Source: an uncultured Selenomonadales bacterium (lineage in GTDB: Bacteria; Bacillota; Negativicutes; Selenomonadales; Selenomonadaceae). From it: a DNA stretch of 57,077 nucleotides. Under the pieces are notes generated by a model, which saw only the letters and a program-made list of their open reading frames with translations, searched no databases and was not told the origin of the DNA. Both the position numbers and the translations under genes were made by a program. Positions 4,794 through 37,490 of this stretch are shown one piece after another (position 1 is the stretch's first letter; each line of letters begins with the position of its first letter). Where the stretch lies: the NCBI GenBank assembly GCA_947304355.1, contig CAMZAX010000014.1:1-57077 (forward strand). The letters are read 5' to 3'.

Positions 4794-7202
4794 ATGAGTA
4801 AGCATTTACACCAAACCATATCGGGAGCCGAAACCGAAGAGGAGCTTAAAAATTTTTTCGCCAAGTTCTTCAGTATCAGGCTGTCCACGAAAAATTTTAT
4901 CGACCTGTACACGAAACAAATCCTGTTCGAGTTCAAATTGGACGCGCCGCTGAAAAAAATTCAAGAACGCGCAAAAATCGTCGCGCAAATGCTTTACTAC
5001 GTCCGCCGCCTCAAATACGGCAGAGACGCGCGACTCGTCAGCCCAAACATTTGCGCCGTCACAAAAGATTTCGCCGTCTTGTTCAAGACCGAAACCTTTG
5101 CCGAATTCTTCGACGCCGACGACAACGACAAAGACGACGACGACCCCGGCTACGATTGGGATTTGGCTCCGTCATCGCCGTCAAAAAAGCTCGTCAAGGC
5201 TCTTGCCGCCTTCGCGCCGCTCGTCAATGCGTGCGTCTACGATTTGTCCAAGCATGGCGACGAACTTGAATTCACCAAGCTCATTGAAAAAATTCGCAAG
5301 CGTAAAGATTCCGTCGCCGCCAAGAAACGCATCACCGAAATGAATTTCTATCAAATCTTCGAGTATTGGCAAGAACTTTTCGGCGCGGACGTCACCAACG
5401 GCAGGAAGGCTTCCGAATATTTCATTACCGACATCGAACACGGCAAATCCGAACGTTTAATTCGCGGCGTGCTCTTTCGCATGACGGGCGGCGAACGCGT
5501 CGAAAAGCCCGTCAACGTCAACAAGTACGACGAATTTTGGAATCGCTACGAAAAAATTTATTCCGCTTACGAAATCATTGCTCTGCGTCAGAAAATGGAT
5601 CGCATGACCGAAGAAAATTTTCGGCGCAGGACGGGCGAATTTTATACGCCGTTGCCGTTCGCCGATAAAGCCGTCAAATATTTGGAACGCACCGTCGGCG
5701 AATGGTGGCGCGACGACAATTTTCGACTCTGGGACATGGCGGCGGGCACCGGCAATCTCGAATTCAATTTCTCGCCCGAAATGCTGAAACGTTGCTACAT
5801 TTCCACGCTGATTCAAGACGACGCCGATTATTGCAAGAGCATCTTCCCCGACGCCACCGTTTTTCAGTACGACTACCTCAACGACGACCAAGCCAAGCTG
5901 CCGCAAAATCTCCGCGACGACCTCGCCGACCCGAATATCAAATGGCTCGTCTTCATAAATCCGCCGTACGCCACAGCCAACAACTACGAACTCGACAAAA
6001 CCAGAATCATCAAGGACGGCGTGTCAATGACGGCGATTCGCGAACGTATGACTGCCGACGATATGGGCGAAGTCAGCCGCGAATTGTTTTCGCAATTCCT
6101 TTACAGAATCAGCCGAGAATTTGCCGACCGTCAAACGTGGGTAGGAATTTTTTCAAAGATTAAATACATCAATTCGACAAATGACCAACCGCTCCGCGAT
6201 AAATTTTTCAAGTACAAATTTGAACGCGGCTTTGTCTTCAATTCACGAAACTTTGACGGTTGCAGTGCGAATTTTCCTGTCGGCTTTTTGATTTGGAATC
6301 TCGGCGAACAAATTCCGCTTGAGGCGCAAGAAATTTCGTTGGACGTTTACAACAACGCTGTCGAAAAAATTGCGGAGAAAAATTTTCGTTCTGAGCAACG
6401 TGAAGATTTTCTTAACACTTGGATTAGCCGCCCGCGTTGCACGAAAAAATTTCCGCCGCTGTCGAATGCGTTCACTGTTGCCGCTCAAAACAAAGACCGC
6501 CGCGACAGAATTGCCGAAAATTTTTTGGCATCGTTCATGTGCAAAGGAAATGAATTTTTAAATCAAAATTACACGGCATTATTATCTGCGCCGTATGTGA
6601 GCGCGGGCGCAATGTCCGTGACGCCCGACAACTTCGAGGCATGTATGGTAATGCACATGGTGCGCCGCCTGCCGAAGGCGACGTGGCTCAACGACCGCGA
6701 TCAATTCATGCAGCCGACGAAAGCGTTGCCGCGCGAGTTCGTGACGGACGCGGTGATATGGAGCCTGTTCGCGCCGTCGAACGCCACGGTATCGTTGCGC
6801 GACGTTGAATACGAGGGCACGACGTATCGAATCCCGAACAACTTCTTTCCGTTCACGCTTGCGGAGTTGCGGGCTTGGGCGTGCACGTCGCTGGAAATTC
6901 GTTGGCAAATCGCGCGCGCGACCGAAGACAGATTTGCGGCGCAGTGGATACGCGACTGCCGCGCAGATTTGTCGGCGGAAGCATTGGCGGTTTTGGCGGC
7001 GGGCAAAGTGATTTACAAAAAATTTTACGCCGAGCTTGATACGTTGGACACGCGACGTTGGAAGATAACGGATTGGGACGCGGGCTGGTATCAAGTGCGC
7101 ATGGCGTTGGGCGCGACGATTGACTTGTCGGCGTTGTCGAAGAAACTTGAGCCGCAGATATACGAGCTTGGTTTTCTGCGCGACGAAGTAAAATATTTTT
7201 AA
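4794..7202 (+). CDS. Large N6-adenine DNA methyltransferase, possible restriction-modification fusion
   Basis: This 802-residue protein methylates adenine in DNA using S-adenosylmethionine. The SAM-binding motif I is DMAAGTGN (residues 314-321) and the catalytic motif IV is NPPY (389-392). The preceding RRTGEFYTPLPFADKAV is typical of HsdM and type IIG enzymes. The C-terminal 300 residues probably hold target recognition. Near the N terminus, Asp37 and E46-F-K48 are spaced like a PD-(D/E)xK nuclease core, which would make this a single-chain type IIG enzyme; this is inference. No separate restriction or specificity gene is adjacent. The ATG at 4794 follows GGAAGGTGA. An Asp-rich run (about residues 104-120) separates the N-terminal part from the rest. 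Confidence 0.85.
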   Translation: MSKHLHQTISGAETEEELKNFFAKFFSIRLSTKNFIDLYTKQILFEFKLDAPLKKIQERAKIVAQMLYYVRRLKYGRDARLVSPNICAVTKDFAVLFKTETFAEFFDADDNDKDDDDPGYDWDLAPSSPSKKLVKALAAFAPLVNACVYDLSKHGDELEFTKLIEKIRKRKDSVAAKKRITEMNFYQIFEYWQELFGADVTNGRKASEYFITDIEHGKSERLIRGVLFRMTGGERVEKPVNVNKYDEFWNRYEKIYSAYEIIALRQKMDRMTEENFRRRTGEFYTPLPFADKAVKYLERTVGEWWRDDNFRLWDMAAGTGNLEFNFSPEMLKRCYISTLIQDDADYCKSIFPDATVFQYDYLNDDQAKLPQNLRDDLADPNIKWLVFINPPYATANNYELDKTRIIKDGVSMTAIRERMTADDMGEVSRELFSQFLYRISREFADRQTWVGIFSKIKYINSTNDQPLRDKFFKYKFERGFVFNSRNFDGCSANFPVGFLIWNLGEQIPLEAQEISLDVYNNAVEKIAEKNFRSEQREDFLNTWISRPRCTKKFPPLSNAFTVAAQNKDRRDRIAENFLASFMCKGNEFLNQNYTALLSAPYVSAGAMSVTPDNFEACMVMHMVRRLPKATWLNDRDQFMQPTKALPREFVTDAVIWSLFAPSNATVSLRDVEYEGTTYRIPNNFFPFTLAELRAWACTSLEIRWQIARATEDRFAAQWIRDCRADLSAEALAVLAAGKVIYKKFYAELDTLDTRRWKITDWDAGWYQVRMALGATIDLSALSKKLEPQIYELGFLRDEVKYF

Positions 7203-7217
7203 GTCAAATCGGTTTTG

Positions 7218-7246
7218 TTGCCAACCTGCGCGGCGTCTGATAAAAT
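7218..7246 (+). promoter_or_regulatory. Sigma70-type promoter for the rubrerythrin fusion gene
   Basis: TTGCCA at 7218 and TAAAAT at 7241 are separated by 17 bases, and the gene starts 40 bases downstream. The site lies just past the methyltransferase stop, so the fusion gene is probably an independent transcript. Confidence 0.6.
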
Positions 7247-7285
7247 TTGTCTGCGTATGCAAATATTTTTCGAGAGGTGACCCAA

Positions 7286-8455
7286 ATGGACAGCAAAGTT
7301 CTCTTCAACGTTCAATACGGGCTGTTCGTGCTGAGCGCACGCGACGGCGACAAGGACAACGCTTGCATAATCAACACCGTGACGCAAGTGACCGCCGCGC
7401 CCATAACCAAGGACAGAATCTCAATCGCAGTCAACAAAAAGAATTTCACGCACGACATCATCGCCAAGACGAAAAAATTCACCGTGTCGATAATCTCCGA
7501 GGCGGCGACGTTCGATTTGTTCAAGCACTTCGGCTTCCAAAGCGGCGCGAACGTCAACAAATTCGCCGACTTCGACAAAGTTCAGCGCACAGCCAACGGC
7601 ACGCTCGCGATAACCGAGGGCACCAACTCCTATATCAGCGCGAACGTCATTCAGCAGGTCGAATTGGATTCGCATTCGATTTTCATCGCCGAAGTCGTCG
7701 ACATGGAAAAATTCACCAACGTGCCTTCCACGACGTACAATTTCTATCAAGCGCACATCAAGCCGAAACCCGCCGTCAAAGCCGAAGCAGGCAAAGTCAA
7801 ATGGGTTTGCAAAATCTGCGGCTACGTCCACGAAGGCGACGCGCCGCCCGAATTTTGTCCGCTGTGCAAGCATCCTTCCACCGATTTTGAAAAGGTCGTC
7901 GAGGCACCCGCCGCGCAGGGCAACAAATTAGCCGGCACCAAGACCGAAAAAAATCTTTGGGAGGCGTTCGCGGGCGAATCGCAAGCGCGCAACAAGTACA
8001 CTTACTACGCGTCCGTCGCCAAGAAAAACGGTTACGAACAAATCGCCGCACTCTTCCTCAAGACCGCCGAAAACGAAAAGGAACACGCCAAGCTTTGGTT
8101 CAAGGCTCTGGGCGAACTCGGCACGGTCGAAGAAAATCTTTTGCACGCCGCCGACGGTGAAAATTTCGAGTGGACTGACATGTATGCGCGCATGGCACGC
8201 GAAGCCGACGAAGAAGGTTTCCACGAGCTTGCCGAACAGTTCAGAGGCGTCGCGGCAGTCGAAAAGCACCACGAGGAACGCTATCGCAAATTGCTCAAGA
8301 ACGTCGAGGCGCAAGAAGTCTTCAAAAAAGCCGGCGTTCAAGTTTGGGAATGCCGCAACTGCGGTCACATCGTCGTTGGCACCACGGCTCCCGACCTTTG
8401 CCCCGTCTGCAAGCACCCGCAGGCTTTCTTCGAGGTCAACGCCGAAAATTATTAA
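7286..8455 (+). CDS. Flavin reductase-rubredoxin-rubrerythrin-rubredoxin fusion protein
   Basis: This 389-residue multidomain redox protein is cytoplasmic. Residues 1-155 match the FMN-binding flavin reductase fold (as in the high-molecular-weight rubredoxin Hrb). A rubredoxin-type site follows with C175/C178 and C191/C194. Residues 208-350 form a rubrerythrin four-helix diiron domain with the E...ExxH pairs ([34 protein letters not shown]). A second rubredoxin site ends the chain with C356/C359 and C372/C375. Such proteins pass electrons from NAD(P)H through flavin and rubredoxin iron to reduce peroxide, protecting anaerobes. The flavodiiron gene 2 kb away fits the same job. The ATG at 7286 follows GAGAGGTGA; the frame is open upstream to 7247 but without a ribosome site. 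Confidence 0.9.
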
Positions 8456-8479
8456 GCCGTATTAAATACGAATCGTCCT

Positions 8480-8515
8480 GCCCGTCGCGGAGTTATCTGC
8501 GCGGGCTTTTTCTTT
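8480..8515 (+). terminator. Rho-independent terminator after the rubrerythrin fusion
   Basis: The stem GCCCG(T)CGC pairs with GCGCGGGC around a 10-base loop with one bulged T. TTTTTCTTT follows directly. Confidence 0.8.
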
Positions 8516-8644
8516 GACGGCGAAAAAAATCGCCTCAAGCTCGAAAATTATCCGATTCAAATAAGTGCCAAGACGATTTATCGGGCAATCTGCGCGGCAA
8601 TGTTCGATACCCCTGAACAAAAACGTTCCGAAGGCAAGCGGTAG
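8516..8644 (+). pseudogene. Remnant of an IS30-like transposase
   Basis: One open frame without a start codon reads about 42 residues, including SAKTIYRAI, then AMFDTPEQKRSEGKR and a TAG stop. TIYRxI followed by a short Phe-Asp stretch and a Gly-Lys-Arg run is the pattern in the DNA-binding part of IS30-family transposases. Only this short piece is left: no DDE catalytic domain or terminal inverted repeats are visible. The terminator at 8480-8515 abuts it, and tRNA-Arg lies 70 bases further. The family assignment is inference from a short motif. Confidence 0.5.
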
Positions 8645-25077: not shown

Positions 25078-26208
25078 ATGAACGTTTATATTTTGGGCGG
25101 ACTGCGGACGCCGATTGTCGTGGCGAATACCAAGTTCAAAGACATTCGCCCCGAAATTTTGGGCGCGGGCGTTTTGATGGCTCTGCGCGAGAAATTTAAT
25201 CTTGAAAGCGTCGACGAAATCATTTGCGGCAACGCAATCGGCACGGGCGGCAATATCGGCAGGCTCACGACGCTTATCGCGGGTTTCGACGAATCAACAG
25301 CGGCTCTGACTGTCGACAGGCAATGCGCGAGCGGCGCGGCGTCAATCGCAATCGGTTATGCGAAAATCGCTTGCGGGCTTGCCGACGTGATTATCGCGGG
25401 CGGCGTCGAAAGCGCGTCCCTGCAACCGTTGCGCGTCTATCACAGGAACGACCCGCGCTACAACTTGACGGCGGCTGACGGCATAGCGGGCGGTTATCGC
25501 ACGGCGCAATTTTCTCCCGACGAATTCGACGAGCTTGCCATGCTTTACGGTGCTCAACGCGTCGCCGATGCGGAGAACATTTCCAAAATCGCGCTTGACG
25601 CTTGGGCGATGATAAGTCACATTCGTGCGGCGCGTGCCGTTGAAATTTTGCGCGGCAGTATCGTCGAAGTGGCGGGCGTTTCGGAAGACACGGGCATTAA
25701 GAAAAATATTTCCCGCAAGTTGCTTGACCGTGCACCGTTGCCGTTGGGCGCGGGCACAGTCATTTCCGCCGGCAACGCCTGTCGAATCAATGACGGGGCG
25801 GCGTTCGTCGTGTTGGCGAGTGAAAATTTCGTTCGGCAAAATAACTTGACACCCGTCGCGCAGATTTTGGACGTGGCAACGGGCGGCGTCAATCCTTTGG
25901 AGAGTCCGCGCGGTGCTCAAGCCGTCGCCGACAAACTTTTGGCGCGAAACGATTTGACTTACAACGCCCTGTCCGCGATTGAATTCAATGAGGCGTTCGC
26001 GGTTATCGACGTGCTGTTTGAACGCGAACACTCCGACTGCGTGGACAGGTTCAACAAGCTCGGCGGCGCGTTGGCTTACGGACATCCTTACGGCGCGAGT
26101 GGCGCGATTTTGATGATTCATTTGCTTGCGGCGTTGAAGAGCGGCTTGGGCTTGCTGAGTATCGCGGGCGCGGGCGGCACCGGCGACGCAATCCTTATCG
26201 AGCGATGA
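25078..26208 (+). CDS. Thiolase-family enzyme lacking the C-terminal catalytic cysteine
   Basis: This 376-residue protein follows the thiolase fold. The nucleophile Cys is in RQCASGAASIAIG, the NEAF motif is EFNEAFAVIDVL and the active His is in AYGHPYGASGA. The second catalytic Cys of the usual CxGGG motif is replaced: the segment reads LLSIAGAGGTGDA, with Ala at that position. Claisen condensation normally needs that Cys, so the reaction may differ, as in SCP2-type or archaeal thiolase-like synthases. ATG 25078 follows GGGAGGA. The stop overlaps the next start as ATGA. Confidence 0.8.
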   Translation: MNVYILGGLRTPIVVANTKFKDIRPEILGAGVLMALREKFNLESVDEIICGNAIGTGGNIGRLTTLIAGFDESTAALTVDRQCASGAASIAIGYAKIACGLADVIIAGGVESASLQPLRVYHRNDPRYNLTAADGIAGGYRTAQFSPDEFDELAMLYGAQRVADAENISKIALDAWAMISHIRAARAVEILRGSIVEVAGVSEDTGIKKNISRKLLDRAPLPLGAGTVISAGNACRINDGAAFVVLASENFVRQNNLTPVAQILDVATGGVNPLESPRGAQAVADKLLARNDLTYNALSAIEFNEAFAVIDVLFEREHSDCVDRFNKLGGALAYGHPYGASGAILMIHLLAALKSGLGLLSIAGAGGTGDAILIER

Positions 26209-27320
26209 ACTTTTACGATTTGCTCAAGGCGCGGGCTGAAACTTTCGGCGACAAGATTTTCCTGCAGGTCGACGCGAAAATTTTTACCTACGCCGAATTT
26301 TTTTGCGCCGTCGACAACCAATCGGGCGATGGGAAATTATTTACCCAAGCCGTAAATTTCTTCGCCGCGCAGAAAAAAAATCCGTCGAACGTTTTTGAAG
26401 TCAAAACGACCGGCTCAACCGCCGCGCCCAAAATTTTGCGTCGCACGTTTGAAAGTTGGGCTGACTTCTTTCCGACGCAGAACAAAATTTTTCGCGTCGA
26501 CGAAACGTCGCGGCTCTTCATGCACGGCAGTCTTGACTTCACGGGCAATTTGAACGCGTTGCTGTCGATTTTGTATGCGGGCGGCTCCGTCGTCACGACA
26601 GACAAATTCGCGCCCAAAACGTGGCTTGAACTAATCGAACGCGCGACGAACGTTTACCTCGTGCCCGCGAAACTTGCGCTGTTGGCGACGGGCAAGCCGC
26701 TTGCAAACGTCCGCTCGGTCTTCACGGGCTCGCAAGTCTTGACGGAAAGTCAAAGCCGCTCGCTCATGAAAAAATTCCCCGCCGCAGAAATTTTTCTTTA
26801 CTACGGCGCAAGCGAATTGAGTTTCGTCACGTACAAAAAAATTTCCGCCGAAAACGCGGGCGACGTTCAAAACCTCGGCAAGCCCTTCGACGGCGTGAAA
26901 ATTTTTACCCGCGACGGATTGATTTACGTCGACACGCCCTTTGCCGTCGAAGGCGTCGAAATGCCCGCAACTGTCGGCGACGCGGGACGAATCGTTGACG
27001 GCGATTTGATTTTCATCGGGCGCGGCGAAGATTTTATCAATCGCGGCGGTGTAAAAATTTACGCGTCGGCTGTCGAAAGTAAATTGCTGTCGATTGACGG
27101 CGTGGAGGCGGCGGCTGTCGTCAAAGTCGGCGACAAAGTTCGCGGCGAAAATTTTATCGCTTACGTCGTCGGCACTGCGGACAAAAAAATAATTCGGCAA
27201 GCTCTTTCGCCTGCCGAATCGCCGAGAGAAATTATTTTCGTCGAATCGTTGCCGCTGAACGCGTCGGGCAAAGTCGACAAGAATTCACTTAAACAACTCA
27301 ATCAATTGTTTGCCGATTAG
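26205..27320 (+). CDS. Short AMP-forming acyl-CoA/ACP ligase
   Basis: This 371-residue ANL-superfamily enzyme would activate a carboxylic acid as acyl-AMP and load it on CoA or a carrier. The phosphate loop is KTTGSTAAPK, the aromatic motif is FLYYGASELS, and the C-terminal part has FINRGGVKIYASAVESKL with the catalytic Lys in SLPLNASGKVDK. It is about 130 residues shorter than most relatives, with losses in the N-terminal domain. It overlaps the thiolase gene by 4 bases. Its last 36 bases also overlap the convergent TSUP permease gene. Confidence 0.8.
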   Translation: MNFYDLLKARAETFGDKIFLQVDAKIFTYAEFFCAVDNQSGDGKLFTQAVNFFAAQKKNPSNVFEVKTTGSTAAPKILRRTFESWADFFPTQNKIFRVDETSRLFMHGSLDFTGNLNALLSILYAGGSVVTTDKFAPKTWLELIERATNVYLVPAKLALLATGKPLANVRSVFTGSQVLTESQSRSLMKKFPAAEIFLYYGASELSFVTYKKISAENAGDVQNLGKPFDGVKIFTRDGLIYVDTPFAVEGVEMPATVGDAGRIVDGDLIFIGRGEDFINRGGVKIYASAVESKLLSIDGVEAAAVVKVGDKVRGENFIAYVVGTADKKIIRQALSPAESPREIIFVESLPLNASGKVDKNSLKQLNQLFAD

Positions 27321-28049
27321 AATCACGGTCACGCCGATAAACAGCGGGCGAACGTAAGCCGCGCCTTTGGTGATTGCCATTTTCGCGCCGCACGCCGCGC
27401 CCAAAATCATGCCGCAACCCATCGGCAACGCGTAAGAGTAATTGACGAGCCCCAAGCCCGTAAAAACAATCACGGCTGCGAGGTTGCTTGCGAAGTTGGC
27501 AGTGCGAGCATTGGCGGCGGCAGTCAAGAAACCGTAACCCATAATCAGATACAGGAACAACATAAACGAGCCCGTGCCCGGTCCGAAGAAGCCGTCGTAG
27601 AAACCGAGCGCGAAAATCATCACGACGCCGAGCAAATAATTTTTTCGGGTGACGCGGACAGATTTTTTATCCGCGCTCCAATTTTTTTTCGCCACGGAGT
27701 AAATCGCAATGACAATCAGCATGACGATGACGAGCGGGCGCAAAAAATCGGGCGGGACTTGCCGAACAATCATCACGCCGACAATCGAGCCGACGAACGC
27801 AAGCGGGAACATCACCCGCATAATTTTTTTGTCGACGGTGCCCGAACGCCAATACGTCAAAAAGCCCGCGCAGGCTCCCATGCACGAAGCGACTTTGTTG
27901 GTGCCGAGGACGTTAAGCATTGGCAAGCCCGCCCACATGAGCGTCGGGACGGAAATCAGTCCGCCGCCGCCGACAACCGAATCGATAAACGCTGCGACGA
28001 AACCCATGCCCGCCATTGCCGCGATAACTGTTACGTCAAGTGTTTCCAT
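27285..28049 (-). CDS. TSUP-family (TauE/SafE) membrane permease
   Basis: This 254-residue protein has about eight hydrophobic helices with the family pattern GFVAAFIDSVVGGGGLISVPTL near the N terminus and its echo FYDGFFGPGTGSFMLFLY in the second half. Members move sulfite, sulfonates or organic anions across the inner membrane. The substrate is unknown here. The start at ATG 28049 is preferred because AGGAG lies 6 bases upstream; that ribosome site is supplied by the heptamer array at 28054-28078. The 3' end overlaps the ligase gene tail to tail. Confidence 0.85.
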   Translation of the reverse strand: METLDVTVIAAMAGMGFVAAFIDSVVGGGGLISVPTLMWAGLPMLNVLGTNKVASCMGACAGFLTYWRSGTVDKKIMRVMFPLAFVGSIVGVMIVRQVPPDFLRPLVIVMLIVIAIYSVAKKNWSADKKSVRVTRKNYLLGVVMIFALGFYDGFFGPGTGSFMLFLYLIMGYGFLTAAANARTANFASNLAAVIVFTGLGLVNYSYALPMGCGMILGAACGAKMAITKGAAYVRPLFIGVTVILIGKQLIELFK

Positions 28050-28053
28050 TCCC

Positions 28054-28078
28054 AACTCCTAACTCCTAACTCCTAACT
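28054..28078 (+). repeat. Tandem heptamers AACTCCT
   Basis: Three exact AACTCCT units and a partial fourth fill the space between the Hsp70 stop and the TSUP start. Read on the minus strand, the unit AGGAGTT supplies the ribosome site of the TSUP gene. Confidence 0.95.
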
Positions 28079-28082
28079 GCTT

Positions 28083-30980
28083 TTACGTCGCCCATTTCAT
28101 AAGCAAAGATTCTTCCTCTTCGGGGCTGAGTTCGCCGCCGTGAATCATCTTTTGCGCCACGTCCTGTGCCTTCGCGAACAGTTCGGTAAAATTTTCGTCG
28201 TAAATCTTGTGCAGGTCGCCGAAAAGTTTTTCCGCGTCGTCGAAGGATTCTTGCGCAATATCGTTGACGGAGCGGCGGTCGCAAACCAAACCCATCGCCA
28301 ACAGGCAAACGCTTATTTCGACGTTGTTCAAGTTGCGCGAGCGAATCACTTTGCAAAGGTCGCTGACGATTTGTTCGCGGCGTATGCTTGAATTCGTCGG
28401 ACGCCCGTCAAGTTTGAACGCAACGCCGAGCGCGTGAGCCGAAATCTGAATCGCCGAAGACACCGCGCCGCTTAAAATCTTCGAGCAATCTTTTTTGAAC
28501 TCGTAATAAATCCAATCGACTTCGGTTTTTGTAATGGCGTGCGTGTAAAGATTCGCCATGCGAAATTTTTCGTTGTTGTGCAGGTTAATCAGCAGGGCAA
28601 TGTCTTCGTCGTTGCCGCACATCGACAGCGTGTAAACGGCTTGAATTTTGGTGTTCATCTTCAAGCCCTGCGGTCTGCCGAGGTTAATTCCGGGGTTGTA
28701 AATTTCGTCGTCAAGAATGTGCAGGCAAAGGCGCGCGAGGCGTCTTTTTTGTTGGGCAGTCCAATCCGCGCCGATTTTCCGCGCGATAATCACGCAACGG
28801 AGCTTGAAAGATTCTTCGCGGGAATTTTTGGCGTCGTCGAGCATTTGCAGGAGCGGTTCGGCAAATTCTCTGTGATTCGAAGCGGAAATAATCGTGTTGA
28901 CGTTGAGCTTGAGCGTCTGCGAAAATTTGATGTTGTCGTCCTTGTTGCGGTTGCGGAAAGCGTTGTCGACGTTGCGGCACAGCGAACGAATCGTATTGAG
29001 TTGCGCGCGCGGATTTACTCTGCCGCCGAAGCGAGCGATTAATTTAGTCTTGGGGCCTTTTTCGACGCCCGTCGCGATAGAAATTTCAGCCGTGCCGTGA
29101 TCCATTAAGTCGCGCCCGTGTTCGTCGCGGCAAGTGGCGGCGTCCATGCGAATGATTTTGTCTTCGTCCATGAAAATGCTGAACGTAACGAAAATATCGC
29201 CCGTCATGCGCGAATAACGTTCGGGGAATTCGATATTGCCCTTGGCGATGATTCGATAACTGCCGTCGGTCTCCGCGCGGGCAATCGGGACGCTGATGAC
29301 ATTTTTGCCGGGCGGAAGCCTGAAACCCGTGAATCGTTGCGAAGTGTAAGGCAACTCTTTGCCGGCGGGGATAATCTCTTCGTAATTGCCGCCGAAGGTC
29401 ACGAGGTAAAAACTTTCGTTGAGGATGTTGCTGCCGAAGACCACGCCGATTGAGCGGTCGGCATTGGTGATGTTGCGATTGGCGGTGAAATTTCTGCGCG
29501 GCGGAGCGTCGGGCATTTGCGGGAAAAATTTTTTCGCGGACGCGTCGTCGGTTTCGGGCGGCAATTCGTTTTGGATTTCGCCGGCAAGTTCCTTGTCGTA
29601 TTTGTGCAGGAAGTAATGATAAACGGCGGCACCGCGCGCGACGGCTTGGTCGGGGTCGAGCGCGACAATCGGGTCGAAGCCGAAAAATTTCTTCAGCCGA
29701 TTGATAACCATGTAAAAGCGCGACATTCCGCCGTTCATTATAACCGCGTCAACTTTTGCGTCCGCGCCGAGCTTGACAGATGCCTTGTTGAGCACGTCGA
29801 GAATCGGCAGGATAATATTTTTTTGCTTGCCGAATTTTTCCGTGACGGCGGCGAGATTTTTGTAATCGTCGAAAGAAATTTCTTCGCCCATGAAGCCGCG
29901 CCAAATATCCTCCAACTGCGCGGCGGTGAAGCTGTCGGAGTAAGCGTAACCCGTGGTGCCGATATTGCCGCCGACGGGAAAATCTTCGTCTTCGTCCCAC
30001 CAACCCGAATCGCCGGAGCCGAACGCGTCGCTTTTCTGCGCGCTGACTTCGAGCTTGAGATTTTCGGCGTAATTTAGGAGCTGACTCATGACGCCGCGTT
30101 CTTCGTGGCGGATTTTCCGGACAATATCGTCGTGCGCAGCGTACTGATTCAAATAATGATCAAACATTGCCTTGGCGAGACACAAATCAAAATCGTCGCC
30201 GCCCAGGAGCGTGTAACGATTGGTCGCAATGTCTTGGACTTTCAAAATTTCGGGCGCGTCTTCGCGTCTTGAAATTTCGTGCAAAGTAATATCGAGAGTT
30301 CCGCCGCCCAAATCGAAAACCATGACGTTTTTCTTGGAGCTTAGGTCGAGAATCTGATCGGCAATTTCGCCGTTGCGCACTTGGTTGATAAAGTCGTAGA
30401 TAACGGCGCGGGGTTCCGACAATAAAATTTGTCGCGGGGAGCCGTCCGCCTTGCGAATTTTAATTCCCGCAAGTTCGGCGGCCTTCAACGTCGCCTGTCG
30501 CATGATGAAATCGAAATTTGCGGGCACCGTTATTACCGCGTCGTCAATCCTTTCCTGGTGATAAATTTTTGCGGCGTTGCGCAACATGTGTTCCAAAATT
30601 CTTGCGGAGACCTGCGCGGGCGTCTTGTCGGGTATGTTCGATGAGAGACCTTCGGCGTAAGCGTTGCCCATCTGGCTTTTGATTGACTTGGCAACGAGAT
30701 ACGGTCGAAGCGGGTAACGTCCTTTCGCGAAGTCGCCGACAATCGGCTGGTAATTTTTTTCGTCGTTGTAGTAGACGCAACTTGGCAAAATCGGTCGTTT
30801 CTTTAGCGTGAACTTGGCACCCGCGCCCGCGTTGTACATATCGACGGCGCGGTCGAGATCAACAACTTTGCTGACGATATTTCCGTTCGGGCGGATATTC
30901 ACCGTCGCCAAAACGGAATTGGTTGTGCCCAAATCAATGCCGACGCATAAATCGTTATGCTCTTCGCCGTTGATTAACAT
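28083..30980 (-). CDS. Large Hsp70-family chaperone with extended helical C terminus
   Basis: This 965-residue protein is far longer than DnaK (about 610-640). The N-terminal ATPase domain has the phosphate-1 motif CVGIDLGTTNSVLATV, the phosphate-2 motif VMVFDLGGGTLDITL and the adenosine motif VIMNGGMSRFYMVINRL. An acidic insert (SGWWDEDEDFPVGG) sits within the nucleotide domain. A beta-sandwich-like part resembles a DnaK substrate domain (PIARAETDGSYRIIAKGNIE). The last 350 residues are a helical domain with no DnaK counterpart that I recognise. Upstream in the same operon are a GrpE-like gene (12 bases away) and an MBL-fold gene, so it probably has its own exchange factor. The ribosome site is AAGGGGG. 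Confidence 0.88.
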   Translation of the reverse strand: MLINGEEHNDLCVGIDLGTTNSVLATVNIRPNGNIVSKVVDLDRAVDMYNAGAGAKFTLKKRPILPSCVYYNDEKNYQPIVGDFAKGRYPLRPYLVAKSIKSQMGNAYAEGLSSNIPDKTPAQVSARILEHMLRNAAKIYHQERIDDAVITVPANFDFIMRQATLKAAELAGIKIRKADGSPRQILLSEPRAVIYDFINQVRNGEIADQILDLSSKKNVMVFDLGGGTLDITLHEISRREDAPEILKVQDIATNRYTLLGGDDFDLCLAKAMFDHYLNQYAAHDDIVRKIRHEERGVMSQLLNYAENLKLEVSAQKSDAFGSGDSGWWDEDEDFPVGGNIGTTGYAYSDSFTAAQLEDIWRGFMGEEISFDDYKNLAAVTEKFGKQKNIILPILDVLNKASVKLGADAKVDAVIMNGGMSRFYMVINRLKKFFGFDPIVALDPDQAVARGAAVYHYFLHKYDKELAGEIQNELPPETDDASAKKFFPQMPDAPPRRNFTANRNITNADRSIGVVFGSNILNESFYLVTFGGNYEEIIPAGKELPYTSQRFTGFRLPPGKNVISVPIARAETDGSYRIIAKGNIEFPERYSRMTGDIFVTFSIFMDEDKIIRMDAATCRDEHGRDLMDHGTAEISIATGVEKGPKTKLIARFGGRVNPRAQLNTIRSLCRNVDNAFRNRNKDDNIKFSQTLKLNVNTIISASNHREFAEPLLQMLDDAKNSREESFKLRCVIIARKIGADWTAQQKRRLARLCLHILDDEIYNPGINLGRPQGLKMNTKIQAVYTLSMCGNDEDIALLINLHNNEKFRMANLYTHAITKTEVDWIYYEFKKDCSKILSGAVSSAIQISAHALGVAFKLDGRPTNSSIRREQIVSDLCKVIRSRNLNNVEISVCLLAMGLVCDRRSVNDIAQESFDDAEKLFGDLHKIYDENFTELFAKAQDVAQKMIHGGELSPEEEESLLMKWAT

Positions 30981-30992
30981 GATAAAACCCCC

Positions 30993-32066
30993 TTATTCGC
31001 CGCTGACTTCTTTGAGTCGCGGACGAGAAATTTGAACGTCTTTATTTTTGTAAACCCAACCGGGCGAAAGAACTTTGACGCGTTTGACTTCGGTGGTGTT
31101 GAGGAAGGGCGAGCCTTCGTAGTCGCAGCTTTCCACTTCGTCGAGGCGCATGTCCTTGACCGAGCCGGGTTTCATAATCGGATTGATTTCGCTGTCGCGA
31201 ATGAATTGCGCGAGCCGTTCAATCAAAATGAACAGCCCGCCGATTTCGGGTTGGAGTTGAACTTTGTCCTTGCGGAGCTGACGGACGCCGTTGCGCACGT
31301 TCAAAACCGCGTCGAGTATGCAACCGTATTTTTCGGAGTTGAGTCGCGAAAAGAACTCAACCAAATCGTCTTGATGGCTTTGTTTGATACGGGCGTCGAA
31401 GTCGTCTTGCAAGTCTTTCAGCAACATGTCGGAACGATTGAGCATGTTTTCGAGCAGTTCGATTTTGTCGGCCTGCGGATCTTTTTTGTCGCCCTTCGCG
31501 CCGCTTTTGGTCTTGCCGCAGATATTTTTGAGGAAATCGCTGGCGTCGTAAAGGAAATGCTTCATGTAGACGTTGCCAAACTTTTCAAGCGTGTCGGCGT
31601 CGTTGCCGCTGTCGAGTTCGGGGTGCTTGACGTAAAGCATGAGGCAAGCAATGCGCTCCTGAATTTTGTAACGTTCGCCTTCGCGCGTGTGAACTATTTT
31701 GTTGCGCAGGGCAAGAAAGTCGTCGAAGTCCTTTTGCTTGCGCGACGTAAGAGCCTGCGCGAAAGCCTTGACGATTTCTTCCGCCCAATCGATGAGTTCG
31801 GCGCGTTTCTGCTGATGACTGAGCCGCGACGACTTGAGAATTTTGATGATGTCTTCGTTGTAAAGGTCGGTCTTGTAGCGGATGTTCATTTCGTCGGCGC
31901 AGACGCGCGGCGTGAGCGATTTGTCTTCGCAGAAAAGTTTTATGACGCGGTTTTCCAAAACGTACTCGTCGTAGGAGGTCGACGAAAGATTTTTGCTTTT
32001 GCGTTCGATTGCCTTACGCAGGTTTTCGATAAATCTTTTAACAACAGGGTCGGTGATGTTTATCAT
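30993..32066 (-). CDS. GrpE-like nucleotide exchange factor with novel N-terminal domain
   Basis: This 357-residue protein has two parts. Residues 1-200 are helical and unfamiliar (region around SLTPRVCADEMNIRYKTDL and DFDDFLALRNKIVHTREG). Residues 210-357 follow the GrpE plan: a coiled coil (KIELLENMLNRSDMLLKDLQ), a four-helix-bundle-like stretch, and then a beta domain with KDMRLDEVES, TEVKRVKVLSPGWVYKNK and a final ISRPRLKEV. The last compares with the GrpE ending TVxxVxxxGYxxxxRVLRPAxVxV. It is encoded directly before the large Hsp70, the same pairing as grpE-dnaK. The start ATG 32066 follows AGGAGG. The assignment is by pattern only. Confidence 0.6.
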   Translation of the reverse strand: MINITDPVVKRFIENLRKAIERKSKNLSSTSYDEYVLENRVIKLFCEDKSLTPRVCADEMNIRYKTDLYNEDIIKILKSSRLSHQQKRAELIDWAEEIVKAFAQALTSRKQKDFDDFLALRNKIVHTREGERYKIQERIACLMLYVKHPELDSGNDADTLEKFGNVYMKHFLYDASDFLKNICGKTKSGAKGDKKDPQADKIELLENMLNRSDMLLKDLQDDFDARIKQSHQDDLVEFFSRLNSEKYGCILDAVLNVRNGVRQLRKDKVQLQPEIGGLFILIERLAQFIRDSEINPIMKPGSVKDMRLDEVESCDYEGSPFLNTTEVKRVKVLSPGWVYKNKDVQISRPRLKEVSGE

Positions 32067-32083
32067 AAAAAATTTCCTCCTTG

Positions 32084-33190
32084 TCACAGTTCAAAAGGCT
32101 CGCCCGTGTTCGGGAAGATAAAACTCGTCCGCGAATCGGGGTCGTTGATTAAAACTTGTTCAAGCGTCGTTTCGGCGTGAAAAAGTTTATCGGGCGGGCT
32201 GTGCACCACCACGCAGATTTTCGGGTTGACGCGGCGCACGAAGTCAACGGTCGCGGCGAAGTCGTCGTGCAACGAAAAATCGCCGTTGACAATTTCCAAG
32301 CTTGAATGCACGGGCGGCGGATACGTCGACAGCACGACGCCGGGACTGCGCGGGAAAAATTGCAACGGGTGATTCTGTTCGCGCATTATCGGGATGTGAA
32401 CGTTTTCGAAGCGGCGGACGATTTTCATGACGCGCTCGTCGATAAAGATTTCGGCTTGCGGCAGGAACTCGTTAATCAGCGTGATGAGTTCGACGCCCTT
32501 GCTGATTTGCGTGACTTGACAATAGACGCCTCTGCCGTGATTGAGCGCGAACCGAATGCGGCGCAAAATTTTTTTCAACGCCGAGTCGCTGTCGCCGAAG
32601 CGTCGATAGTTCGGGTGTCGCGCGTGCAAGCCGCACAGAATCAGAATGTCGATCTTGACGTCGGGAAGCATCGCCGCGTCGACGAGCCGCGTCGGGAACG
32701 TCGAATAGTCGCCCGTGTAAAGAATGTTCTTGCCGCGAAAATTTATCAGCGTCATCATTGCGCCGGGAATGTGTCCCGCCTGGTGGAAGCTGATTCGCAT
32801 GTTCGGCAACGGAATTTTTTGCAGGAAGGCGACGCTTGAGATGTTGCATTGAATTTTGTCGAAACGCTCTTCCAACTGCGCGGACAAAATTTCTCGCGTC
32901 AAATCGGTCATGTAGACGGCGGCGCGTTCGTTGAGCTCCAAAAAGTCCGGCAACGCGGCGGAGTGGTCAAGATGCGCGTGCGACAAAAATACATGCGACA
33001 CTTGATGAAAGTCTTGCAGGTACGGCGTGTCGAGCAACGCGGAAAATTTCGGCGCGAATCGAATCCCGCGCGTCGAGCCGCAACCGCAGTCGAGCAACAG
33101 ATTATTTTCGCCGAGCTTGAGGAAGTAGCAACTTGCGCCGACTTCCTGCGCGCCTCCGACTGCCATGAAAAAAATTTTCCCGTTCGACAA
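32084..33190 (-). CDS. Metallo-beta-lactamase-fold hydrolase (RNase J/CPSF-like)
   Basis: This MBL-fold protein of about 368 residues has the metal site HxHxDH in FLSHAHLDHSAALPD, further ligands in FHQAGHIPGAMM and NILYTGDYSTFP, and a late VVHSPPDKLFHAE segment. The opening AVGGAQEVGASCYFLKLG and the FHQAGHIPGA motif are those of beta-CASP-type nucleases, but a full beta-CASP cap is not obvious. It leads the operon with the GrpE-like and Hsp70 genes (18-base gap). I prefer TTG 33190, which has GGAGG 8 bases upstream. An ATG at 33223 has no ribosome site and probably lies before the transcript start. Confidence 0.8.
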   Translation of the reverse strand: MSNGKIFFMAVGGAQEVGASCYFLKLGENNLLLDCGCGSTRGIRFAPKFSALLDTPYLQDFHQVSHVFLSHAHLDHSAALPDFLELNERAAVYMTDLTREILSAQLEERFDKIQCNISSVAFLQKIPLPNMRISFHQAGHIPGAMMTLINFRGKNILYTGDYSTFPTRLVDAAMLPDVKIDILILCGLHARHPNYRRFGDSDSALKKILRRIRFALNHGRGVYCQVTQISKGVELITLINEFLPQAEIFIDERVMKIVRRFENVHIPIMREQNHPLQFFPRSPGVVLSTYPPPVHSSLEIVNGDFSLHDDFAATVDFVRRVNPKICVVVHSPPDKLFHAETTLEQVLINDPDSRTSFIFPNTGEPFEL

Positions 33191-33212
33191 CTTGAACGCC
33201 TCCGCAAAAAAT

Positions 33213-33241
33213 TTCGTATACATTTTAATTTAGATTGTCAA
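33213..33241 (-). promoter_or_regulatory. Probable promoter of the MBL-GrpE-Hsp70 operon
   Basis: On the minus strand a consensus TTGACA lies at 33241-33236. The -10 box is less clear; TATACGAAAT about 15-17 bases on is the best candidate. This would place the transcript start near 33205, past the ATG at 33223, and so supports the TTG start. No CIRCE-type inverted repeat is visible. Confidence 0.45.
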
Positions 33242-33280
33242 GTTGGGCAAGCAACGGCCGCTTTGAAAGCGGCGGAACAG

Positions 33281-33350
33281 CTGTCGCGCCGTGTCGTTCA
33301 TGATTCAAGCGTTATCGCCGCGTCCATACGCAAAAAAAATCCCCGCCGCT
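33281..33350 (+). repeat. Diverged intergenic repeat, copy 1
   Basis: About 70 bases align with 44539-44609: TGTCGCGCC, then GTCGTT, CAAACGTTA-type sequence, CCGCGTCCATACGC, A8 and TCCCCGCCGCT. In both copies the 3' part is the start of a terminator hairpin. Just before this copy, CCGCTTT and AAAGCGG form a small hairpin (33258-33273). Confidence 0.6.
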
Positions 33351-33378
33351 CTTCGTGAGTGACGGGAAAAAATTTTTT
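33332..33378 (-). terminator. Terminator after the DUF4127 gene
   Basis: On the minus strand CCCGTCACTC pairs with GAGCGGCGGG (10 pairs, one mismatch, one G-T) around ACGAA, followed by ATTTTTTTT. It is flanked by T6 on the other side and may be bidirectional. Confidence 0.75.
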
Positions 33379-35012
33379 CAACGAGCTTTGCGTTTCTGCC
33401 CGAAGGAAATGTCAGCCTCAAACATCCTGTTCCACGGAAAGTCGACGCGTATGTTGTCGTTGCCCGTGAACGCCGGCAAATTTCGTTTGGCGAAGTCCTC
33501 AAGCAACATCGCGCAGGTGTCGGCGGCGGCGGCGCGTTTGCCGTTCAGAACTTCATAACGCCCGTCGCCCGCCAACCAATCCAACTGACCCGCGCCGAGT
33601 TTCCGAACGTTCGCCTGATAGCCCCAGTCGTCAAGGTAGCGGCGCAGTAAAAGTTCGTCGACGACGTTTTCTTTCATGCGCGACGACAACAGCCCCGTCG
33701 AAAGCGCGAAGCCGCTTGAATTGGTCGGCGTGTTCCAGCCGCTGTAGGCTTGCAACTTGAACAACAGCCCGCGTCGACGCAACTGCTCCATGAGCGCGTT
33801 GTCGGCTCCGTTGGCAAAGGCGATGTCGGCGACGATAACCTTGCGTCCGTCGTTTATGTAATCTTGAATCGTGTCGACAAAAAATTTCGTGCCTTCGCGG
33901 ACGTTGCCGTTGTTGAGCGCGTTGTCAGCCTCGAACGTCGCGCCGTCGGGATTCGTGTTGACTGCAAGGATAAAATCTGCGCGGCTTTCGTCGTCAATGA
34001 TGGTCGCGCCCGCCGCCTGAATCGCAGCGCGAATCGAATTGTCAATCGGCTCGTCGGAATAAGCCGGGACAGTCAGCCCGCCGCGTCCCCAGTTGTACTT
34101 GACGTAAATCGTCGGCGATTTCTTCGCGCGTTCGTTGACGGCACGCGTCAAAAGCACAATCCCGATTTCGTCGATGCCCGCCGTCGTCAAGTAGGTGTTG
34201 CCGTCAAGCCCGCGCCCGTATTCCAAAAGCTTGCGGCCTTCGTTGTGCGTCTGCGAGTAGGGCGCATTGTCGTCGCGTCCGAGCAAAAGATAATCGAACG
34301 TCTTGTTGCGAGCGCAGTCGATTAATTTTTTGTTGGCGTCGAAATTTTTTTCGCGGCGTCCCATCCAGTCTTCGACGGCGCGCGTGGGAATGAGCCTTTG
34401 CAAAAAGTTGAACTCCTTGACTTCGCGAGCCGACAAGCCTTCGGTCTCCTGCTTATCCATGAGTTCGGTCAAACGGAAAATATTAGTGCCGTAGTAACGA
34501 TAATAATCCGGTTCTTCGTAGCCCGAAGCCAGCCCCGTGCGCGGCGTGCGCATTATCGAGCCGAAGACGTAAATAGGAATTTTTTTATGCTTGCGACGAA
34601 ACTCCGTGAACAAATCTGCGCGGGCAAGCACTTCGTCGCCGTCGAATTCGTGTTTGCGCGAGCCGACGAGACTGCCGTAAAGCAACGCGTCCGACGAAAT
34701 GACAGCCGCCGTCAAATCCTTGGTCGCGTTTTTGTTGAGCCAATCCCAAAGCAAATCGGGGTCGCCGAGATTGTCGCGGTCGCCCAAAAGTTCCGCAGGC
34801 GGCGACACGATTTGAATGCCCGCCTTTTCGAGAACTTCAATCGTCTGCTTGTTGACGATCGGTCTGTTGTCGTGCGGGATGTAAAGAATTTTTTCTTTGA
34901 CGTCCTTTTTCTTCGCCGCGCAGGTGCCCGCCGCCGTCAGCGTGACGAGCAAGCCGAGCATGACGCAGGCGATGATTCGTAATGCGTAATGCGTAACAAT
35001 CGCTCCTTTCAT
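33378..35012 (-). CDS. DUF4127 family secreted protein
   Basis: This protein of up to 544 residues has a signal-peptide-like start and the DUF4127 body (ILYIPHDNRPIVNKQT near residue 40, then AELLGDRDNLGDPDLLWDWL, ISSDALLYGSLVGSRKH and LLGRDDNAPYSQTHNEGRKL). The role of DUF4127 is not established; conserved Asp, His and Arg residues suggest an enzyme of the cell surface. The start is uncertain. ATG 35012 has no ribosome site, while GGAG lies just inside it and is followed by CATTACG heptamers encoding THYALRI. An ATG at 34961 also lacks a site. The repeat may have displaced the original start. Confidence 0.82.
   Translation of the reverse strand: MKGAIVTHYALRIIACVMLGLLVTLTAAGTCAAKKKDVKEKILYIPHDNRPIVNKQTIEVLEKAGIQIVSPPAELLGDRDNLGDPDLLWDWLNKNATKDLTAAVISSDALLYGSLVGSRKHEFDGDEVLARADLFTEFRRKHKKIPIYVFGSIMRTPRTGLASGYEEPDYYRYYGTNIFRLTELMDKQETEGLSAREVKEFNFLQRLIPTRAVEDWMGRREKNFDANKKLIDCARNKTFDYLLLGRDDNAPYSQTHNEGRKLLEYGRGLDGNTYLTTAGIDEIGIVLLTRAVNERAKKSPTIYVKYNWGRGGLTVPAYSDEPIDNSIRAAIQAAGATIIDDESRADFILAVNTNPDGATFEADNALNNGNVREGTKFFVDTIQDYINDGRKVIVADIAFANGADNALMEQLRRRGLLFKLQAYSGWNTPTNSSGFALSTGLLSSRMKENVVDELLLRRYLDDWGYQANVRKLGAGQLDWLAGDGRYEVLNGKRAAAADTCAMLLEDFAKRNLPAFTGNDNIRVDFPWNRMFEADISFGQKRKAR
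34978..34998 (+). repeat. Tandem heptamers CGTAATG
   Basis: CGTAATG, CGTAATG and CGTAACA sit at the 5' end of the DUF4127 gene, between a ribosome-site-like GGAG and the signal-peptide codons. It is the same family as the array at 22289. Confidence 0.9.
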
Positions 35013-35059
35013 TCAGAATTTGTTGTTAATGATGGTGTATATGAACGTCGCGAACTTGA

Positions 35060-35220
35060 GGCGCGCATGGACGCGCGCCCTCCGCCGCGTTTGAAACAGG
35101 ATGTTTCAAGCGGCGACCACTCGGCACGGGTTGTTTGTCGCTCCGAACTGTCATCGGCAGCCGCCTCTGCGAGGTGCCCTTTCTTTCGCTTCCTTTCTTT
35201 GGGCAAGCAAAGAAAGGAAG
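35060..35220 (+). repeat. Interspersed hairpin repeat, copy 1
   Basis: This 161-base element has three blocks shared with 41061-41173: GGCGCGC and GCGCGCC around ATGGAC; a long hairpin CCGC..TTGAAAC-AGGAT-GTTTCAA..GCGG; and a perfect 9-base hairpin CTTTCTTTG-GGCAAG-CAAAGAAAG. About 48 bases between blocks two and three are missing from the other copy. It occupies most of the 256-base gap between the DUF2225 and DUF4127 genes. No gene or transposase is visible. Confidence 0.8.
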
Positions 35221-35268
35221 TTTAAAAATAGTTCTAAATAACTTTCTTGCGCGGGAAGAAAGTCTCGT

Positions 35269-35952
35269 TCAGTATTTGCGTCCGCCGCGCATGTCGCCCC
35301 ACAAGTCGCGAGCTTTGTCGTAAATGCGGGGCTCAAGAGTCCGAACGTTTTGGTCGCCGATGATTTTGGACAGATAAAGCTTAGCCTTTTTTTCGTCGCC
35401 GAGCCGCCGATAAATCGCCGCAATTAAATAGACAACCGCGTTATCGGTCAGCGCGTCGATTGGGAAATGTTCCTTCGCCAACGCCTCCTCGTAAAATTCA
35501 ACCGCCTTGGTCAGAAACTCCGTCTCCTGTTCCGTGTCGCCTGCTTCGCGATAAATCCACGCCAACTGATGCGCATACTTCGCCCGCTTTGACGCCTTGC
35601 CGTTAAGAATCTCCAGATACTTCAGCGCAAGGCGGAAAGCGGTCGACGCGTCGCTGAATTGCCGCTCCTCGACGAACGGGATTTTGATGTTGCGCGTCAA
35701 AAGGACGTTGCGCAAAATCTTCAAGTAGCGGTCGGGGATTTTCGTCGTGAAAGTCGCTTCGTCCGCCGCGAAACCGCAATGCTCACAGATCCACACCGTG
35801 TAATAGTACGGATTGAAATTTTCGTAGTGGACGCAAGCATCGTCGTCGCGTTTCAAAACCATGATTCGCGAACGCGTCTTGACAACGCGAAACGTCTTTT
35901 CGCAGACAGGACAAAATTTTTCGACAACGAACGTTTTTCCTATGTCAGCCAT
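35269..35952 (-). CDS. DUF2225 family zinc-site/TPR-like protein
   Basis: This 227-residue cytoplasmic protein starts with two CxxC pairs (CPVC near residue 14 and CEHCGF near residue 55) that would hold zinc. A helical region with TPR-like pairs follows (RLALKYLEIL, AKYAHQLAWIYREAG, LIAAIYRRLGDEKKAKLYLSKI). This is the plan of DUF2225, common in Firmicutes and of unknown role. ATG 35952 has GAG nine bases upstream; a TTG five codons earlier is an alternative. The C-terminal end is Arg/Gly-rich (DMRGGRKY). It is transcribed toward the repeat at 35060. Confidence 0.82.
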   Translation of the reverse strand: MADIGKTFVVEKFCPVCEKTFRVVKTRSRIMVLKRDDDACVHYENFNPYYYTVWICEHCGFAADEATFTTKIPDRYLKILRNVLLTRNIKIPFVEERQFSDASTAFRLALKYLEILNGKASKRAKYAHQLAWIYREAGDTEQETEFLTKAVEFYEEALAKEHFPIDALTDNAVVYLIAAIYRRLGDEKKAKLYLSKIIGDQNVRTLEPRIYDKARDLWGDMRGGRKY

Positions 35953-35981
35953 AATTTCGGAGCTCAAACCTCAACTTGCAA

Positions 35982-37490
35982 TCAATACTTGGTCGGGGCG
36001 TCGGGCGCGGATGTTTGTCGTTCGTCATATTTGACGCCCGCGCCGCCTTCGTATTTCAGCAACAGCCGCGTGTAAAGTTGTTTCCAATCGTCAAAGACTT
36101 TGACGGCATTTTGATTCAACGTCGCGGCGAATTTATTTTTCGACAAGCCCGCAGACGACTCGACGAGCTCAAGCGAATTTTTTTCGGATTGATTAACCGC
36201 ATCGCTGACCGTGTCGCCTAAAGAATTCCAATAACCGCGACTTAAAGCCGTGACTTGACCGGACGCCCAAAACATTTTGGAATCGTCGTATTTATCTTTG
36301 ATCGCGAAATTGTAAGCGGCGGGCATTTTCGCAACGGTAAACGGCACGAAAGGATTTTCAAGAGCCGTATTCGTCGCGAGCCAAAAAACCGGCGCGGGCA
36401 ATTTGTCATTGACTTGCGCAATATATGCGTAACGCGTATCCGCCGTAAGAATTGCCCGTTCGCTTTTTTCTGTGTAATCATACGGCGAACCGTGCGCGCC
36501 CACAGTGTTTTTCGTCGTCATGTCAAATTCGGTGCCTTGATAATAATCGCGGTATAAGCTCATAACGTCGGTTATCGCCAACTTTTTATCGGGCTTAACG
36601 CTCAACGGATAATAATCGGAGTCCCAGCCTTCGACATTGGGCGAAAGGTTAAGCGACGGCGCAACGGTGCTCAGCCCGCGCCACACGCGTCGCATCGAAT
36701 AATACGGGTGCTCCAATTCTTCGGCGCGAAGTGATTTTACCCAATCGAGGTTGCCCGCCGCGTCGTAAGCAGCCCAGCCGAGTTCCTTCAACATTTGCGG
36801 CAAGCGCGGGTTAAAAATCTGATTCGGGTCGTTCTCTCTTATGGCGTGAATTCTAAGCTGATTGGCGGCAATGGAAAAATGCCCGTCGGGAATCTTTTCG
36901 GCAATCCATAAGCCGCCTTTGCCGTCGGGCATCGGTTGCATTTCAAAAAGCCAGCCCTCGTCCTTGTCGGCAACAAACATCGTCTTCGACCTGCCGTAAA
37001 TCCCGTACTCGTCGACAAGCTTGCCCATAAGATTAATTGCTTCCCGCGCTGTTTTGCAACGTTCCATAGCCACGCGCCCAAGTTCAGACGCATAAAAAAT
37101 TCCGCCGCCTTCTTTATAGGGAGTTTCCGGCAACCGAGCGCACAGGTCAGTACATTCGGCGAGCATCAAGCCGTGTTCGTTCACTGCGGGGTAATCGGCG
37201 TCGATATAAGCGTAAGTGTGCTTGACTTCGGGGATATGACCAATCGCCTTTGTATGCGTAACGGCGGGATTGGAATAAACGGGGCGCATACTGCCGCGCT
37301 TGTGATTTTTCGCAGGCACGAAGACGGTATTGGGGTCGTTGCCAAATCCGTCGTCACAATGCGAAACGAAAACATTGCCGTCCGCCGACGCGCCCTTAGT
37401 CACGAGCATAATCGTGCAAGCTTCGGCGTCAACATTCACAAGCGAGACAGCCACCAAGCCGACGGCAAGCTTAGTTAGAAATTTTTTCAT
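35982..37490 (-). CDS. C69 (U34) family dipeptidase, exported
   Basis: This 502-residue Ntn-type hydrolase has a signal peptide whose end leads straight into the nucleophile: Cys25 in EACTIMLVTKGASADGN. In C69 peptidases this Cys becomes N-terminal after processing. Other family marks are SHCDDGFGNDPN, YADYPAVNEHGLMLAECTD-type sequence, GRVAMERCKTAREAI, WLFEMQPM and FSIAANQLRIH. It would cleave dipeptides or small amides in the periplasm. It stands alone; the next gene upstream (37536) is separated by a heptamer pair. Confidence 0.9.
   Translation of the reverse strand: MKKFLTKLAVGLVAVSLVNVDAEACTIMLVTKGASADGNVFVSHCDDGFGNDPNTVFVPAKNHKRGSMRPVYSNPAVTHTKAIGHIPEVKHTYAYIDADYPAVNEHGLMLAECTDLCARLPETPYKEGGGIFYASELGRVAMERCKTAREAINLMGKLVDEYGIYGRSKTMFVADKDEGWLFEMQPMPDGKGGLWIAEKIPDGHFSIAANQLRIHAIRENDPNQIFNPRLPQMLKELGWAAYDAAGNLDWVKSLRAEELEHPYYSMRRVWRGLSTVAPSLNLSPNVEGWDSDYYPLSVKPDKKLAITDVMSLYRDYYQGTEFDMTTKNTVGAHGSPYDYTEKSERAILTADTRYAYIAQVNDKLPAPVFWLATNTALENPFVPFTVAKMPAAYNFAIKDKYDDSKMFWASGQVTALSRGYWNSLGDTVSDAVNQSEKNSLELVESSAGLSKNKFAATLNQNAVKVFDDWKQLYTRLLLKYEGGAGVKYDERQTSAPDAPTKY

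Follow-up and report, generated by a model that had tools for sequence, protein, structure and literature searches.

The window analysed here is a stretch of 57,077 nucleotides from an uncultured Selenomonadales bacterium (GenBank assembly GCA_947304355.1, contig CAMZAX010000014.1), and represents contig C14 of a draft genome of 2.41 Mb that is 88% complete. According to the list of open reading frames (ORFs), its minus strand contains three adjacent genes, hereafter called the trio, that encode a metallo-beta-lactamase (MBL) protein, a GrpE-like protein (GRP) and an Hsp70 protein:

32084..33223, minus strand: MBL gene, CPSF73-like metallo-beta-lactamase protein of 379 amino acids
30993..32066, minus strand: GRP gene, GrpE-like protein of 357 amino acids, counted from an ATG that is common to relatives in an alignment of 57 sequences
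28083..30980, minus strand: Hsp70 gene, protein of 965 amino acids (PF00012, E = 4.4e-37)

The ORF of GRP as listed spans positions 30993-32087, but the ATG at position 32066 is the probable start, since lengths of 354-360 amino acids prevail among the 120 relatives listed (of 181). Counted from this ATG, the intergenic gaps are 17 and 12 bases. A previous sequence-only reading of the window had described three same-strand genes with gaps of 18 and 12 bases; the genes are found at these places. The same reading had assigned a single promoter to the three genes, which we do not uphold. On the strand of the MBL gene, a single promoter-like site is listed upstream of it, with a match of 9/12; it belongs to a set of seven such sites, compared with 3.2 ± 1.8 in shuffled sequences. 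No CIRCE operator was found in the window with up to three mismatches allowed to the consensus, and no Rfam family matched at gathering scores within positions 26000-36000.

A search with GRP alone gathered 76 loci from named genomes, of which 26 belonged to Selenomonadaceae, 17 to Lachnospiraceae, 6 to Oscillospiraceae and 4 to Veillonellaceae, with fewer in other Bacillota; the rest included one metagenome-assembled genome (MAG) each from Synergistaceae and Riflebacteria, and 15 Bacillota with no family assigned. The named relatives of the window genome are Selenomonadaceae, many of them from ruminant guts, and Quinella is among them. Adjacency in relatives was a test set beforehand, and it was borne out: 69 of the 76 loci contain the complete trio, every time as MBL-GRP-Hsp70 on the same strand, and the median gaps that separate the matches are 27 and 26 bases. 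The MBL gene was missing from six loci and the Hsp70 gene from one, and six of these seven cases are explained by contig ends located less than 400 bases away on the missing side. The remaining case, L086, lacks the MBL gene although its contig continues for 2,300 bases on that side. No fourth conserved gene was identified, as every other family was limited to at most 5 of 51 loci in flanks of up to 6 kb. A gene for a TauE/SafE-like membrane protein, named by eye, is located 27 bases downstream of the trio in the window and was not counted as part of it, because just 5 of the 51 loci contain its family. The presence of the trio is patchy: it was found in 33 of 151 genomes of the order (its own included), in 6 of 200 genomes in a Lachnospiraceae sample (the centre genome included), and in 1 of 398 genomes in a sample of the phylum, which was the window's own. 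It is carried by named strains of Lachnoanaerobaculum orale, L. saburreum and Anaerovibrio lipolyticus, which makes it testable.

The window genome also encodes a canonical full-length DnaK (G000:C1:87233-88954, E = 1e-247) with GrpE and DnaJ beside it, and the trio Hsp70 is thus not its only DnaK. Another three Hsp70-like genes are located on C30, C23 and C31. Both PF01025 matches in this genome lie outside the trio, and the single J-domain match is on C1, with no dnaJ in the trio. Among the 24 other trio-bearing genomes, 23 have a DnaK match of canonical strength (E = 5e-165 or better; the best match in G560 is 2e-54), 20 have a PF01025 match, and all 24 have a J domain. The combination of an Hsp70 with a GrpE-like protein resembles grpE-dnaK, and the trio could be seen as a simple duplication of the dnaK heat-shock operon next to a chance neighbour. 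We consider this extremely improbable: the cluster lacks dnaJ and CIRCE, the canonical locus is located elsewhere in the genome, and the MBL neighbour is conserved in 70 of the 76 loci. The view of the sequence-only reading that this is not the grpE-dnaK-dnaJ operon is borne out by the same observations, and its proposal of a specialised chaperone machine is well supported by the conserved adjacency of the trio and the canonical chaperones found elsewhere.

To compare the divergence of the genes, we calculated pairwise distances for 21 genomes, comprising 20 of the 24 trio-bearing genomes and that of the window, with some of the MBL sequences cut by contig ends. G541, G542, G548 and G560 were left out, their best DnaK match being partial, split or weak. 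The distances were strongly correlated within the trio (r = 0.931 for Hsp70-GRP, 0.885 for Hsp70-MBL and 0.922 for GRP-MBL), compared with 0.505, 0.545 and 0.537 for the trio distances against those of the housekeeping DnaK, and the partial correlations among the trio genes given DnaK were 0.84-0.91. For example, the DnaK proteins of G547 (a Veillonellaceae MAG) and G558 (Anaerovibrio lipolyticus) are 77% and 74% identical to that of the window genome, while their trio Hsp70 proteins are only 44% and 45% identical to the one in the window, which is below the values for several Lachnospiraceae (49-52%). The tree of the trio Hsp70 mostly follows class, with three changes. The members from Synergistaceae and Riflebacteria were nested inside Bacillota groups, but their MAG contigs are short (6.1 and 5.0 kb) and may be misbinned, and we therefore do not claim transfer between phyla.

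Searches around Lachnospiraceae revealed divergent second-version trios in G666, G956, G825 and G730, the Hsp70 proteins of which are 33-35% identical to the window Hsp70 in local alignments. Three of these loci (L213, L234 and L235) contain unfused trios. In the fourth (L214, in G730), MBL and GRP form a single frame of 794 amino acids adjoining the Hsp70 gene, a single case in a draft genome. This fusion suggests that the MBL and GRP proteins may be physically coupled, and together with the gene order it favours contact between the two. The fused protein was matched in 11 of 397 genomes, eight with both halves and three with the MBL part only, and in these three genomes there was no GRP or trio Hsp70 nearby. 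A second fusion was suspected in G956 (and G734) from the lengths of open frames, but reading the ORFs gave separate genes, and we claim only the one. Separately, two loci encode proteins of 850 and 924 amino acids (L237:6453-9005 and L238:1257-4031) with a distantly related MBL domain, which do not adjoin GRP or a trio Hsp70.

The Hsp70 protein matches PF00012 with 128 bits against a curated cut-off of 20.6; a profile used at a very strict cut-off gave no matches, and a single sequence was used instead. Three parts can be distinguished:

29583..30959, minus strand: nucleotide-binding domain, residues 8-466
29076..29426, minus strand: predicted substrate-binding beta domain, residues 519-635, from the strands of the model
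28089..29012, minus strand: C-terminal all-helical, repeat-like domain in the predicted model, residues 657-964

The residues of the nucleotide site (D16, T19, T20, K101, E189, D223 and G225-T228) are invariant in 50 of 50 trio proteins and in all four second-version proteins. They cover the phosphate loops and the positions that correspond to Lys70 and Thr199 in DnaK numbering; K101 was assigned from its motif and not from the phmmer alignment. The model strands of the beta sandwich cover residues 524-634, and several alignments to DnaK and Hsc70 extend to residues 635-641. Beyond it, the model predicts about 300 all-helical residues where the canonical alpha-helical lid would sit, in agreement with the extra C-terminal part noted in the sequence-only reading.

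The GRP protein is predicted to consist of two halves:

31512..32066, minus strand: N-terminal helical domain, residues 1-185 (AlphaFold2 model, 10-residue blocks of residues 1-180 at pLDDT 78-97)
30996..31490, minus strand: GrpE-like half, residues 193-357, with a long helix, two helices and a beta wing in the predicted structure

The second half thus shows the features of a GrpE fold in the prediction, namely a long helix, short helices and a beta wing. However, the sequence families give no support to the GrpE-type C terminus. No Pfam family scored above cut-off, and there was no match to PF01025, against which the GRP profile gave P = 0.039 and a probability of 1.3% in hhalign. The comparison of this profile with the GrpE-family protein on C23 produced a chance match of 17 columns, and its sequence search against solved structures only unrelated matches at E = 0.44 or worse. 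A HEPN domain was considered from a weak match to PF18735 (E = 0.35) that pointed to RNKIVH in the window protein, and was rejected because the His of this motif is not conserved in an alignment of 20 sequences. Two loci contain an additional copy of the N-terminal half of GRP between the MBL and GRP genes (L061:1206-1772, residues 1-189; L063:684-1238, residues 1-185), and neither copy matches the GrpE-like half.

The MBL protein matches the MBL domain in Pfam (E = 1.6e-11) and RMMBL with 21.8 bits, next to a cut-off of 21.6. Its best relative among solved structures is CPSF73, with E = 1.3e-23 for the single sequence and 8.6e-44 for the family profile, in line with the CPSF/RNase J-like protein of the sequence-only reading. 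The solved structures nearest to the family profile are CPSF73, INTS11, Ysh1, archaeal CPSF and Cas14, from families that are known mainly as nucleases. Residues were counted in 39 aligned trio members and four second-version proteins, 43 in total. Two sites are of particular relevance:

32963..32980, minus strand: HxHxDH metal motif, MBL residues 82-87 (H82, H84, D86 and H87 in 39/39 and 4/4)
32633..32635, minus strand: Cys197 of MBL, which aligns with Glu204 of CPSF73 (beta-CASP motif A) in 2i7t

All residues of the metal site (H82, H84, D86, H87, the motif III His H151 and the motif IV Asp D172) are invariant in the 43 proteins. The motif-B His H319 and the motif-C His H341, which align to His396 and His418 of CPSF73, are also kept in 43 of 43. 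We take Glu204 of CPSF73 to be the beta-CASP motif A. In PMC4770246, motif A is a Glu/Asp and the His of motif C is associated with RNA nucleases among the beta-CASP enzymes, while a figure legend gives Thr230, not Glu204, as motif A of CPSF73; for Artemis, motif A is Asp165.

A nuclease that cuts RNA is the likely activity of the MBL protein as judged from these residues, with the caveat that the metal site is intact in all 43 proteins, yet the motif-A acid is replaced in all 43, by Cys in 39/39 and by Asn in 4/4 of the second version. The cap is also short, about 70 residues shorter than in the CPSF73-type beta-CASP RNases in the alignment to 2i7t. Both features count against an RNA-cutting role, and the nuclease predicted in the sequence-only reading is thus supported by the metal site and weakened at motif A. 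With the acid and part of the cap gone, the protein may have become another hydrolase or a metal-bound scaffold, in which case the machine would remodel peptides or ribonucleoproteins. We regard this as unlikely, given that all metal ligands and the motif-B and motif-C His residues are retained and that the nearest structures come from nuclease families.

Taken together, the fixed gene order, the co-divergence, the intact ATP- and metal-site residues, the lack of a fourth gene and the one fused frame lead us to read the trio as a single machine. The CPSF73-like protein, which is predicted to cut RNA, would be positioned or gated by the Hsp70 cycle; we put the chances of this at about even. A dedicated Hsp70 with an exchange factor that is coupled to, and gates, a CPSF73-type hydrolase is the best reading, and as likely to be wrong as right. 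In such a machine, GRP would bind its own Hsp70 as exchange factor and also carry the MBL protein. A client, perhaps a nascent chain or a ribonucleoprotein, would be gripped by the Hsp70 and its helical tail, and the MBL protein would cut RNA held at this client. As the trio has no dedicated J-protein, the housekeeping DnaJ may serve, or the helical tail may recruit clients directly. Tentatively, the system might perform Hsp70-directed RNA surveillance, in which the GrpE-fold protein carrying the CPSF73-type nuclease resets the Hsp70 cycle, a misfolded or stalled client is marked, and the attached RNA is cut by an enzyme whose catalytic motif A carries Cys or Asn instead of the acid. The known activity of Hsp70 machines is on proteins. 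If the trio does work as one machine, the pairing of a private Hsp70 and its exchange factor with a CPSF73-like enzyme, as indicated by gene order, co-divergence and one apparent fusion, would directly connect the quality control of proteins with the cleavage of RNA in bacteria.

The fixed trio and its co-divergence, as well as the intact ATP site of the Hsp70, would also suit a chaperone with a single client, such that Hsp70 and GRP fold or maintain an MBL protein that acts alone, comparable to HscA for the iron-sulphur scaffold. However, an exchange factor fused to its client, as in L214, is easier to understand as a working complex, and MBL-fold enzymes usually need no Hsp70 of their own to fold, so we find this explanation rather improbable.

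The sequence-only reading had also suggested a link to defence. The patchy presence of the trio would be consistent with a conflict system, with the chaperone as a sensor of infection that sets an RNase free. Described conflict systems contain Hsp70 with GrpE or nucleases (PMC7159879, PMC11090510). Among the matches listed for the flanks of the trio are Cas6 (two proteins), CARF (two), type III Cas7, and one model each for Csm3, DpdF, JukA and type II restriction, while those listed for control regions are mainly restriction-modification and MADS models. The flank proteins were taken from loci outside the Quinella group, minus three near-copies, with 18 of 155 ORFs omitted (12 long ones and six others, including near-duplicates of another locus). 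The controls came from 20 hand-chosen regions in contigs from 20 of the 24 genomes with the trio, with 24 of 161 ORFs omitted and ORFs above 720 amino acids filtered out earlier. At E = 1e-10, PADLOC identified 56 families in 137 flank proteins versus 96 in 137 control proteins, counts that are rough because many families are related models. The flanks are thus not richer in defence genes than the control regions; we reject a defence island, and the suggested link has no support from the gene neighbourhood. The three trio proteins themselves gave only weak matches in PADLOC. A mobile element was likewise rejected, as there was no match to the trio in phage or plasmid records and none of 11 pattern matches in viral contigs was a relative of it. 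A role in defence therefore appears quite unlikely.

Compared with known systems, the trio resembles GrpE-DnaK-DnaJ in that an Hsp70 with intact nucleotide-site residues has a predicted GrpE-fold partner encoded directly upstream. It differs in the lack of dnaJ and CIRCE, the conserved MBL gene, the extra helical N-terminal domain of GRP and the long tail, predicted to be all-helical, where the usual lid region would be. The MBL protein shares the metal ligands and the motif-B and motif-C His residues with the beta-CASP RNases CPSF73, INTS11 and archaeal aCPSF1 (FttA), but has Cys or Asn instead of the motif-A Glu, a cap about 70 residues shorter and a total length of 379 amino acids. The CoCoNuTs are described in PMC11090510 as McrBC-derived systems in which Hsp70-like proteins occur with HEAT-like repeats and HEPN RNases. 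They are similar to the trio in that an Hsp70-like domain and helical repeats adjoin a predicted RNase. However, the trio lacks a conserved McrB-type GTPase or any other fourth gene, its Hsp70 nucleotide site is intact whereas the motifs are degenerate in CnuD of the CoCoNuTs (PMC11090510), and its nuclease candidate is an MBL and not a HEPN protein. The GAP1-N2 GTPase-centred conflict systems contain HSP70 and GrpE together with GTPases and FNIII/DnaJ proteins (PMC7159879). Like the trio, they have an HSP70 and a GrpE of their own, separate from the heat-shock operon, but the trio has no conserved fourth gene, and a term search of the main text of PMC7159879 did not find "beta-lactamase". Among the papers listed by searches of the open-licence literature for the trio, its parts and its organism, none describes it by title and abstract, the nearest being those on the CoCoNuTs and on the GTPase-centred systems; this does not imply that the trio is absent from print.

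In G550 (C49; L133 and L134) and G558 (C42; L135 and L136), several further Hsp70-like genes lie no more than about 20 kb from the trio, as if it were part of an Hsp70 cluster. The window genome itself contains a second private Hsp70-GrpE pair in L142 (G000:C23:22000-34883, positions 2274-8638), where an Hsp70 of 496 amino acids follows a GrpE-family protein (PF01025, E = 2e-10). This locus also includes genes that by eye resemble those for a vWA protein, a PP2C phosphatase and a protein kinase, a setting that we take to be TerY-P-like.

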